Shown: positions 9,467-41,124 of the stretch, in pieces
Layout: every line of letters begins with the position of its first letter
How positions within the stretch are numbered: position 1 is the stretch's first letter
Assembly: GCF_006965545.2 (NCBI RefSeq)
Contig: NZ_CP041372.2
Span: 1 to 64,000 of the forward strand
Direction: 5' to 3'
Length of the DNA stretch: 64,000 nt
Source of the DNA: Paenalkalicoccus suaedae
GTDB lineage: Bacteria; Bacillota; Bacilli; Bacillales; Salisediminibacteriaceae
Program-made: the position numbers and the translations under genes
Notes under the pieces: generated by a model
Databases searched by the model: none
Told to the model about the DNA's origin: nothing
What the model saw: only the letters and a program-made list of their open reading frames with translations

Positions 9467-9700
9467 AAAGGTAAAAAGTCACTCGTTTATAGATGGAATA
9501 GTAGGTATTTTATAAGTAATAGTAGAAATATATCGCTTTATTTGATTCATATAGTCTATAATAAGTATATTGACACAGATTTAATTGTGCATTTATTCAT
9601 GCATAACATACAATAAAGGGTAATTATGAGGGATTCGACGGTAGCAAACTAACTGATAGAGAATGGATACGCGATGAGGGAACAGAAGGGAGAGAACAGC

Positions 9701-10816
9701 ATGCATGTAACAATTAGTGAGCTTGTACCAGGCTGCATTTTATCAAAGGATGTTTATGTAAAAGCAAATAAACCATTAATAAAGAGGAAAACCGTATTAA
9801 CACCAGAGCATATTCACGTTCTCTCCATTTTTCTTGTAGAAAGTGTTCATACAGAGCCTAAATTAGTAAATGGCGCATCTTATCGCCCCAAGGCTGTACT
9901 TGAGGAATCAAAAGAGGAGCGCAAATCCCCGTCCTCTCTATCGGACCAGGATTCCTTCCTAAGCAGATATTTACGCGCCGTTCATCTATATAAAAAACAG
10001 TTTGCCCATTGGCAGGGTGGCACCAAGCTAGATCCATATGCAATGCGAGAGATCTTCTTACCTTTATACGAAAAAGAAGTGACGAAAGAGCAACTAATGG
10101 AGTTGCATCACTATAGTGATAAAGATAACTATATTTCGTACCACGCAGTAGCGGTAGGAATATTAAGTAGTCTTGTTGGAAAGAAGATAGGGTTATCGAA
10201 TGCAGAAGTGATTCAATTAGGCTTAGCTGGCCTTTTAGCGGATTGCGGAATGGCTCGTATATCATTTAACGTGTTTAATAAAGCATCGGCACTAACAAAA
10301 AGTGAATATGAAGAAGTGAAGAAGCATCCAGTAGTCAGCTATAGAATGCTTGAAGAGGTTCCGGGGTTTTCTAAGAAAGCGATGCTTGGAGTATTGCAGC
10401 ATCATGAACGAGAAGATGGAAGCGGATATCCTCTGTCTATTAAATCAAATAAGCTACATCAATATGGAAAGATCATTGCAGTTGTAGATGCCTATCATGC
10501 AATGACTGTAGAAAGGCGCTATCGATCCAAGCAAACTCCTTACAAAGTGATTGAATCTTTGTTAGTTGATGAATTCGGCAAACTAGATCATACCATTGTT
10601 AAGGAATTTGTTTCTATGATGCTCCCAATAGCCATCGGCCAGCGCGTTCGATTAACGAACGGATCTAAAGGAGAGATCATCTATTTAAATAAAGAACTCC
10701 CTACAAGACCACTGATTCGTTTAGATAGTGGAGAACAGTTTGACTTAGCAGGCTCTATGAATATCTATATAGAAGAAGTATTTTCAAATGAAGAGCAACA
10801 GCAGGCAAAAGCTTAA
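9701..10816 (+). CDS. HD-GYP-like protein with degenerate HD motif
   Basis: 371-residue protein related to c-di-GMP phosphodiesterases of the HD-GYP class. The N-terminal region (1-50, LVPGCILSKDVYV...) is typical of such proteins. The HD-GYP core (about 140-300) contains HHEREDGSGYP at residues 234-244. The canonical His-Asp pair is replaced: the motif reads LLADCGM, with Ala180 where the metal-binding His belongs. Catalysis is therefore doubtful and a binding role is possible. The C-terminal ~60 residues resemble a small beta-barrel. The ATG at 9701 follows GAAGGGAGAG. The in-frame ATG at 9674 has no good ribosome site. Own terminator; monocistronic. Confidence 0.85.
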   Translation: MHVTISELVPGCILSKDVYVKANKPLIKRKTVLTPEHIHVLSIFLVESVHTEPKLVNGASYRPKAVLEESKEERKSPSSLSDQDSFLSRYLRAVHLYKKQFAHWQGGTKLDPYAMREIFLPLYEKEVTKEQLMELHHYSDKDNYISYHAVAVGILSSLVGKKIGLSNAEVIQLGLAGLLADCGMARISFNVFNKASALTKSEYEEVKKHPVVSYRMLEEVPGFSKKAMLGVLQHHEREDGSGYPLSIKSNKLHQYGKIIAVVDAYHAMTVERRYRSKQTPYKVIESLLVDEFGKLDHTIVKEFVSMMLPIAIGQRVRLTNGSKGEIIYLNKELPTRPLIRLDSGEQFDLAGSMNIYIEEVFSNEEQQQAKA

Positions 10817-10833
10817 TAGATTTAGTATAGGAA

Positions 10834-10873
10834 GGTTCTATTAGATGCATCTTATCTAATAGAGCCTTTTTTT
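10834..10873 (+). terminator. Intrinsic terminator after the HD-GYP gene
   Basis: Thirteen-pair stem 10834-10846 / 10854-10866 (GGTTCTATTAGAT with its complement), followed by TTTTTTTA. Confidence 0.88.
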
Positions 10874-10950: not shown

Positions 10951-11135
10951 TTGACACGTGAACGGTGGTAAAGGAGGGAAGATTGACTCAAGCGGAGGTC
11001 TGGGTGAGCAAAGGGAGCTTGATTTGATGCATACAGATCTTTCTTGATGTAAAGGAAGGCGCTTGACGCATATGGTCCTTAACTTTACACAAAGCAAACT
11101 AATAGGGTAGCAAACGAAGGCCGAAGTGATGTGGT
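10951..11135 (-). repeat. Inverted 21-bp-type degenerate repeat array upstream of rrn1
   Basis: On the minus strand this stretch reads ATGCGTCAAG, TTTACATCAAG, GTATGCATCAAAT and so on, matching the repeat downstream of both rRNA operons. The plus-strand cores (GAYGCA-like) begin at 10985, 11006, 11026, 11046 and 11065, spaced 21, 20, 20 and 19. One unit like the second repeat type (CGAAGTGATGTGG) lies near 11119. No gene is supported in 10874-11363 otherwise. The minus-strand reading frame across it is a by-product of a period divisible by three. Confidence 0.7.
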
Positions 11136-11363: not shown

Positions 11364-11491
11364 TTGCACTATTAGTTTTTTATATGATATATTATTCTTT
11401 GTTGCCGCAAAAAGCGAACAACACTAAAGCGAAAAACAATTCAAAATTATTTTTAAATAGTATTGACTTTGTCGAGTAGCTGCGATACAAT
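11364..11491 (+). promoter_or_regulatory. Tandem sigma-A promoters of rRNA operon 1
   Basis: P1 has TTGCAC at 11364-11369 and TATATT at 11388-11393 (spacer 18). P2 has TTGACT at 11463-11468 and TACAAT at 11486-11491 (spacer 17). Tandem promoters about 100 bases apart are usual for Bacillus rrn operons. Confidence 0.82.
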
Positions 11492-11690: not shown

Positions 11691-13260
<1,570 letters not shown>

Positions 13261-13499
13261 AAGGAGCATTAAGCTCAATCGAACTTCGCATTCGATCCTT
13301 TTGTTTAGTTTTGAGAGGGTAAGCCTCTCCGGAAGAACCCCTTGTGGGGTCTATTCCGAGTTGACCTTTGAAAACTGGATAGTAATAAACATGTAGAAAA
13401 GAATCACCGGAAAATTATACGTTTGGAAACAAACGAATGGTTTTTCCGAGTGTCTTAGAAGATAGCCAAGAAGTAAAACGACGTCCTAACAGTAAGTTA
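13261..13499 (+). other. 16S-23S spacer without tRNA genes (operon 1)
   Basis: 239-base spacer containing a second boxA-like site (ACCTTTGAAAACTGG, from about 13364) and several stems that flank the rRNAs for processing. No tRNA cloverleaf or CCA end is visible, so Ile/Ala tRNAs are absent here. Confidence 0.8.
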
Positions 13500-16436
<2,937 letters not shown>

Positions 16437-16560
16437 AGATATATAGTTTTACAGAAGGCGTCAACTAAGACGATTCTTCTTCTACATGTTCACTATCCAG
16501 TTTTGAAAGGTCAACGACCTTTATCTTTCTTGATTCGCATAGCGGAGCAAGAAATCATAG

Positions 16561-16677
<117 letters not shown>

Positions 16678-16765: not shown

Positions 16766-16970
16766 CGATCGTTTGCGTCAATCGAGAGAGTGTATACGTC
16801 TGTTAGGAGGTGGTTTACATCAAATCGGTGCGAGAGTGCGTCAGTTGGATCTTCGTATGCGTCGCCGCAGATTGATTTGCATCAAATGAAGGAGTGTATG
16901 CATCAGATAGAACGGCGTTTGCACTAAATCAGAAAGTAGGTACGTCGCTAAATTTTCCGTATATGACTAG
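16766..16970 (+). repeat. Type A 21-bp periodic array downstream of rrn1
   Basis: Nine degenerate units. The six-base cores (TGCGTC/TGCATC type) start at 16774, 16795, 16816, 16837, 16858, 16878, 16899, 16920 and 16941: seven steps of 21 and one of 20. The pattern is GTWTGCRTC, often followed by AAAT. The first eight units correspond in order to the units downstream of rRNA operon 2, so the two arrays share ancestry. The stretch decays by about 16965. Confidence 0.8.
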
Positions 16971-17020
16971 TAAATAGTGGGTCCAAATGTATCATAAAAA
17001 AAATGCCGAAACCGATAGAA

Positions 17021-17106
17021 TCAAGTAACAAGCGAAGTAGTCCGCAATTTGCGAGAAGTAGCGCAAAACTTGCCAAAAACCAACGCGGAACAAGCACTGT
17101 AAAGTA
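17021..17106 (+). repeat. Short type B repeat remnant downstream of rrn1
   Basis: Units CGAAGTAGTCCGCAA (17033), AGAAGTAGCGCAAAA (17054) and AAAAACCAACGCGGAAC (17075) are 21 bases apart, with weaker flanking ones. They match the second repeat type of the larger field after rRNA operon 2. The remainder up to the guaB promoter holds only a parS-like site. Confidence 0.6.
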
Positions 17107-17252
17107 TCACAATACAAGCATACTTTAACTATCAAAAAGTAACTCCTATTCAATCGATAAATTCTACAGCACTATGCGATTTACCACATACCATCAACAA
17201 TTCAGATCTGTATTCATAATCTCTTACCACCTAAAATCCAATAAGTTACAAA

Positions 17253-40411: not shown

Positions 40412-40740
40412 GGCATCGTTCGTTTGCGCCACATGGAGGCGCGTATACGTCAGGTTGGAGGTCGCTTGCATCAAATCAGCGAGTGAGTGCGTCACCTGAT
40501 CTGCCGTATGCGTCGAGGCAATTTGGTTTGCATCAAATGAAGGGGTGTATGCATCAGATAGAAAGGCGTTTGCATCACATTTAGCTACCACTGTGTCAGG
40601 GGGATCTTCGTATGCGTCTGTTCAACTACCTTTGCATCAAGAGGGAAACTGTTTGCTTCAAACGCCTGGGCGTATGCATTAAACAAGGGGTTTGTTGCGT
40701 CACTTGGTACTTGGTATGCGTCAAAGTGTATGGTGCAACA
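40412..40740 (+). repeat. Type A 21-bp periodic array downstream of rrn2
   Basis: Fifteen degenerate units. Cores (TGCGTC, TGCATC, TACGTC and similar) start at 40425, 40446, 40467, 40488, 40509, 40529, 40550, 40571, 40592, 40613, 40633, 40654, 40675, 40696 and 40717. Twelve steps are 21 and two are 20. The commonest pattern is GTWTGCRTCAAAT plus about eight free bases. Units GTATGCGTC and GTTTGCATCAAAT tend to alternate. No gene is supported here. Confidence 0.85.
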
Positions 40741-40756
40741 TCGCACACACCGAAAT

Positions 40757-41124
40757 AAGGGAGAAGTCTGTCACAAAAGAAGTAGTATGCAACACAGGAG
40801 AAGTAAGCCGGAAACGAAGTGGTGCGCAACCTACAAGAAATAAAATGCAAATTGCCAAAAGTATCGCGGAACAAGCGAGAAACAGTGTGGAACTTCGACA
40901 AAGTAAGATGCAAAAAAGAAGTAACGCATAAATAGTAAGAAGTAAAACGGAAATTGCTAGAAATATCGTGGAACAAGCGAGAAACAGTGCAGAAATTCGG
41001 CAAAGTAAGATGCAAAAAAAGAAATAGCACGGAAAAATGGAGAAGCAGAACATAAAGTGGGAGAAGTAAAACGCAACTCAGCAGAAGTAGTACGCAACTC
41101 GTAAGAAGGAATATAGTAGAGATC
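40757..41124 (+). repeat. Type B 21-bp periodic array, opposed to type A
   Basis: About 18 units with the pattern AGAAGTANNATGCAA. Unit starts: 40762, 40778, 40799, 40815, 40836, 40857, 40878, 40899, 40917, 40938, 40959, 40980, 41001, 41020, 41041, 41062, 41083, 41104. Thirteen of the 17 steps are exactly 21. A higher-order duplication is visible: the units at 40836-40899 recur almost unchanged at 40938-41001. The shared word GATGCAAA is the reverse complement of TTTGCATC in type A. Hydrophobic minus-strand frames across it are period artefacts. Confidence 0.82.

Follow-up and report, generated by a model that had tools for sequence, protein, structure and literature searches.

The REP/BIME elements of enterobacteria are dispersed intergenic repeats, found mostly at the 3' ends of genes and between convergent genes, and their sequence is specific to the species. 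Downstream of eukaryotic rDNA, the Sal-box/TTF-I arrays provide tandem protein sites past the rRNA terminator, which block polymerases. Sites that are two turns apart lie on one face of the DNA helix, an arrangement that favours cooperative binding through lateral contact. Here we describe a family of arrays in Paenalkalicoccus suaedae, in which the unit TTTGCRTCAAATNRANNNYCG is repeated at about 38 places between the genes of the chromosome. Three arrays of this kind (type A) are present in the window, i.e. the whole 64-kb stretch of DNA that was analysed, and one of them is located upstream of the ribosomal RNA operon rrn1.

A degenerate array upstream of rrn1

The features around rrn1 and the other arrays of the window are collected in Table 1. 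The original prediction had placed minus-strand words at 19-21-base steps at 10951-11135, and had named in advance a comparison with shuffled sequence as the test that could refute it. The scoring used a 19-column unit profile, trained solely on arrays outside the 64-kb window, and allowed steps of 19-22 bp within a chain. The words are present at the predicted place and form a chain of six units on the minus strand, which reaches 37.2 bits, compared to maxima of 13.0 bits in 2000 shuffles of the local 340-bp region and 11.9 bits when the whole 64 kb was shuffled 20 times. The second-best minus-strand chain in the window scores 7.3 bits. When real DNA of related genomes (about 160 kb) is scored, all loci stay at or below 8.8 bits, except for one that has a 20-bp tandem array of its own (28.9 bits).

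Table 1. Features near rrn1 and further arrays in the window
Feature	Position	Strand	Evidence or remarks
HD-domain protein gene, 380 aa, 3' end faced by the array	9674..10816	+	ORF; Pfam HD_5, E=4.7e-22
Intrinsic terminator of the HD-domain gene	10829..10871	+	19-pair stem and T tract
Degenerate 6-unit type A array upstream of rrn1	10972..11093	minus	37.2-bit chain and exact units
Candidate rrn1 promoter, TTGACT-17-TACAAT	11463..11491	+	consensus scan only; ~370 bp beyond the array
rrn1 (16S, 23S, 5S)	11692..16677	+	Rfam
8-unit type A array downstream of rrn1	16772..16938	+	97.5 bits; steps 21,21,21,21,20,21,21
15-unit type A array after rrn2, with three higher-order repeats of ~104 bp	40423..40735	+	178.9 bits
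Type B repeat (AGAAGTAGTACGCAACTC) following the type A array; ~102-bp repeat with internal 21-bp steps	40778..41111	+	repeat finding

Read leftwards on the minus strand, the units start at 11093 (TTTGTGTAAAG), 11072 (TATGCGTCAAG), 11053 (TTTACATCAAG), 11033 (TATGCATCAAAT), 11012 (TTTGCTCACCC) and 10992 (CTTGAGTCAAT), in steps of 21, 19, 20, 21 and 20 bp. The array is degenerate, with three good units (those at 11072, 11053 and 11033, with steps of 19 and 20) and three poorer ones, and both other type A arrays in the window score higher. Its degeneracy hides it from lag autocorrelation and from a plain search for repeats, and a separate profile search, with a model that includes units from the window, gives a weak match at 11008-11041 on the minus strand (E=0.0055 in 301 kb). 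The array upstream of rrn1 is thus a real, decayed member of the genome-wide set, which may no longer be functional.

The profile built outside the window detects both arrays that flank rrn1, and the upstream one belongs, as had been suggested, to the same family as the downstream one in inverted orientation. The two had been described as inwardly mirrored, but both read outward, away from the operon. The upstream array starts about 100 bp past the terminator of the HD-domain gene and is antisense to this gene. After the type A array downstream of rrn1, there is a remnant of the type B repeat (around 17015-17110). A strict pattern search for type B repeats gave no matches, as the pattern was too strict. 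The Rfam search of the window identified rRNA, SRP RNA and T-boxes, and nothing else.

Phasing and conserved core

Distances between strong cores on the same strand peak at 21, 42, 62-63, 83, 104, 125, 146, 167, 187 and 208 bp, with few values in between. The mean step between cores is 20.79 bp, and a register of 20.8 bp, or two turns of 10.4 bp, is held over at least 208 bp, or ten units. The step pattern of 21, 21, 21, 21 and 20 (or 19) bp generates a higher-order repeat of 104 bp, whose phases can be recognised, so that part of the regular spacing is inherited by duplication of this repeat and does not reflect independent events. Within the unit, information is concentrated in the 9-bp core word T-W-T-G-C-R-T-C-A, with about 1.3-2 bits at the invariant positions of the core, compared to less than 0.7 bits at most positions of the linker. 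The purine bias of the motif strand is weak (46% purine). A CRISPR array can be ruled out, since a 9-bp core in a 21-bp step differs from repeats of at least 23 bp with unique spacers of about 30 bp.

The strand polarity of the arrays relative to flanking genes, described below, would fit an element that works at the RNA level, such as a signal for decay or termination in antisense or read-through transcripts. However, conserved pairing or covariation is absent from 25 aligned copies of the 104-bp repeat, helical phasing at about 20.8 bp is meaningful for double-stranded DNA and not for RNA, and the sign of the polarity differs between species. We therefore consider a role at the RNA level very unlikely.

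Distribution in the genome

The chromosome is a contig of 3.97 Mb, from which array and rRNA loci were examined as extracted stretches. Exact paired cores at the spacing of the arrays occur 30 times, compared to none for the reversed control, and the profile search of the chromosome yields 98 matches at E<=0.01, which group into the roughly 38 places mentioned above. The arrays are intergenic and typically found just past gene ends; the reading frames that overlap them are all at most 124 aa long and look spurious. The genes beside the arrays are unrelated, and about twenty of them were identified by Pfam. Between codirectional protein genes, 15 arrays are antisense and 2 sense (p=0.002), and arrays downstream of rrn operons in the P. 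suaedae genome run sense. A strong 14-unit array at 2103817-2104106 of the chromosome, sense between codirectional ABC transporter and methyltransferase genes, breaks the orientation rule.

In view of the two arrays around rrn1, a boundary element or a mobile repeat specific to rrn operons had been suggested. Arrays do lie just downstream of four of the eight rrn operons (at 16772, 40423, 104553 and 712279), and rrn1 is flanked on both sides. However, rrn1 is the sole operon with an array just upstream as well (there is none upstream of rrn2), and the remaining arrays, about 34 of the 38, adjoin protein genes. A three-unit array at 300000 precedes another rrn operon by about 1.7 kb, although its neighbours are other reading frames. 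The four rrn-downstream arrays resemble each other, with all six of their pairings within the top eight linker-similar pairs of the genome, and in view of this common linker sequence they probably descend from one array that was copied with the operon. The upstream array is not among these copies: its linkers resemble theirs no more closely than those of other arrays (identity 0.27-0.40), and it fits the general rule of a location beyond the 3' end of a gene and antisense to it, the gene here being the HD-domain gene. In four relatives, an insensitive test detected no periodic array in the equivalent gap before rrn1.

This distribution contradicts an rrn-specific reading, including an origin by rrn-targeted mobility or recombination and a boundary element found on both sides of rrn operons and nowhere else. 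Such readings appear barely tenable, and the idea of an rrn bracket should be dropped. The suggested boundary or insulator role survives as a general hypothesis on the 3' ends of transcription units, but not in its rrn-specific form.

Divergence at orthologous loci

In another Bacillales genus, where the arrays have the core TTGCGTCA, two loci could be traced via orthologous genes. The gap after an M29 peptidase gene contains TTGCGTCA-like arrays in 20 species, and none in the other ten that were examined. Among species with identical geometry at this first locus, differences amount to 20/288 (0.069) in the core and 120/372 (0.323) in the linker; at the second locus, the counts are 17/240 and 80/300, so that cores differ by about 7% and linkers by about 30%. 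In each of the five sets compared, the core has diverged less than the linker, with a smaller gap in two pairs that have diverged little overall. The counts are pairwise and thus non-independent, and the arrays were located by their core pattern, so that the core figure is biased down somewhat. Steps in the orthologous TTGCGTCA arrays are mostly 20 or 21 bp, and gain or loss mostly concerns whole units. Three of the species without TTGCGTCA arrays have an array of another word in the same gap. In one of them (L355), it is built from 21-bp TTCTTTGAGTTTTG units with the core TTCTTTGAG, and in the other two (L359 and L360) from 52-bp units. The lower divergence of the core, the conserved geometry and the arrays of other motifs at the same locus argue that both the core and the geometry are under selection, and that the core is replaced from one species to another.

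The same loci bear on the possibility that the arrays are neutral or selfish minisatellites, which would arise by slippage where intergenic DNA is non-essential, spread by recombination and have no function. Their species-specific sequence, the perfect and young arrays in relatives, and a location where insertions are least harmful are as expected for such elements, as is the expansion of an orthologous array of 5-6 units to about 30 units, in alternating steps of 21 and 20 bp, in one species (L377:2412-3055). However, old arrays retain core and spacing although their linkers have diverged by about 30%, or to near randomness in P. suaedae, and neutral decay would strike core and linker alike. 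That the arrays are such minisatellites thus seems rather improbable.

Arrays in related species

Evansella halocellulosilytica, which belongs to the same family as P. suaedae, has 21-bp arrays of TTGCGTCAAAGNANAGAGAAG with a 10 to 1 bias towards sense, opposite in sign to P. suaedae, and a second kind of array, TTACCGGATAAACTGAAATTT, after rrn. Other relatives have 20-bp (AAATTAAGAAAGTGATGAAC), 52-bp, 51-bp and further ~21-bp arrays near rrn operons, and across related species the periods are 20, 21, 41, 51 or 52 bp, with the same or different cores. The TTGCRTCA core is patchily distributed across 299 genomes of the order. It is densest in one genus of another family, the genus of the orthologous loci described above, where five sampled species have 9-44 matches and controls are near 0. 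A scan of named genomes with three exact cores was left out of all counts; among the matches listed, many are outside Bacillales (in Nostoc and others), and several of these are regularly spaced by 63 bp and look like perfect 21-bp repeats.

Some relatives have more than one kind of repeat after rrn. In one of them, two different 52-bp tandem repeats follow each other after rrn1 (L261:9366-10600), the first with inverted TGTGTCAT/ATGACACG words and the second nearly perfect. Another has perfect arrays with a 20-bp period after different rrn operons, built from two sequences that are unrelated (L257:10919-11400 and L260:515-900), and the reverse complement of the former contains TTCATCA, which is near the TGCATCA core. 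In the same relative, a fragment of a 5S gene end is repeated together with its terminator downstream of the rrn operon (L257:10650-10730 and L260:350-440).

The presence of different motifs in relatives could mean that the phasing, rather than a specific sequence, is what matters. The arrays might be topological sinks, similar to BIMEs, and serve at 3' ends as favoured sites of DNA gyrase or of a nucleoid protein that wraps DNA: periodicity at about 10.4 bp would let the DNA wrap and relieve the supercoils of transcription, most of all after rrn. The location of the arrays, which follow genes and half of the rrn operons or lie between convergent genes, is consistent with this, as are periods (20, 20.8, 21, 41, 51 and 52 bp) that are near-multiples of the helical turn in unrelated sequences across species. 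On the other hand, the strong conservation of an 8-9-bp core amid diverging linkers exceeds the needs of wrapping, and the link to gyrase is drawn by analogy with BIMEs. A role as topological sinks is possible, but in our view unlikely.

Discussion

To account for the computed features (the family, its phasing, 3'-end location and polarity, the lower divergence of core than linker and the difference in motif at one locus), we propose that the arrays are phased operators, bound by a DNA-binding protein that is sequence-specific and evolves fast. This protein would mark transcription units at their 3' ends, perhaps by forming a barrier to transcription or supercoils. We give this proposal about an even chance of being right. 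Each unit would be one site, recognised through its core. The spacing of about 20.8 bp would place bound molecules on one face of the helix and allow cooperative binding. The arrays occupy the gap past a gene's terminator, mostly antisense to the gene or between convergent genes, and there they probably bar polymerases that read through and/or supercoils driven by transcription. The word that is recognised would change fast between lineages, while architecture and type of location are kept. It is the cooperativity expected on one helix face, together with the 3'-end location, from which we infer a protein that coats the gaps and holds back polymerases or supercoils. Not every case fits a simple polar roadblock, since the polarity in Evansella is opposite and the arrays after rrn are sense.

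On a broader scale, the data hint, somewhat more tentatively, at an undescribed class of 3'-end markers in Bacillales: operators held at a spacing of two (or five) helical turns, with a fast-evolving reader and a word that is swapped between species at the same loci, in parallel to satellite DNA and the proteins that bind it. If the proposed binding takes place, chromosomes in Bacillales would have a widespread level of organisation at the 3' ends of transcription units that has gone unnoticed, and the arrays would be an example of satellite-like sequence turnover under strict geometric constraint. The sets of orthologous arrays make the question directly testable in environmental bacilli that are kept as laboratory strains. 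In a search of open-access papers, we found no published description of such arrays.

Among known systems, the BIME-gyrase interaction is the nearest analogy for the proposed mechanism. Like REP/BIME elements, the roughly 38 arrays are dispersed at the 3' ends of genes. In contrast to REPs, which are imperfect palindromes that fold as hairpins, the units lack structure, repeat in tandem and are phased at two turns, and neither a palindromic hairpin unit nor consensus pairs were found in the aligned 104-bp repeats. With plasmid iterons and phased operator arrays, they share a conserved core and, as judged from the distance histogram, direct repeats about two helical turns apart. However, the arrays are chromosomal and present in dozens of dispersed copies that are not at a replication origin, and no initiator gene was seen among the unrelated neighbours. 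Bacterial minisatellites (VNTRs) also gain and lose tandem units and are species-specific, but the arrays described here keep core and spacing when old and highly diverged, and the equal rates of core and linker expected of a neutral minisatellite were not found in the four orthologs of the first locus or, similarly, at the second. The Sal-box/TTF-I arrays offer a working analogy, with tandem sites beyond the rRNA terminator, although they belong to another domain of life and most of the arrays in P. suaedae follow protein genes.
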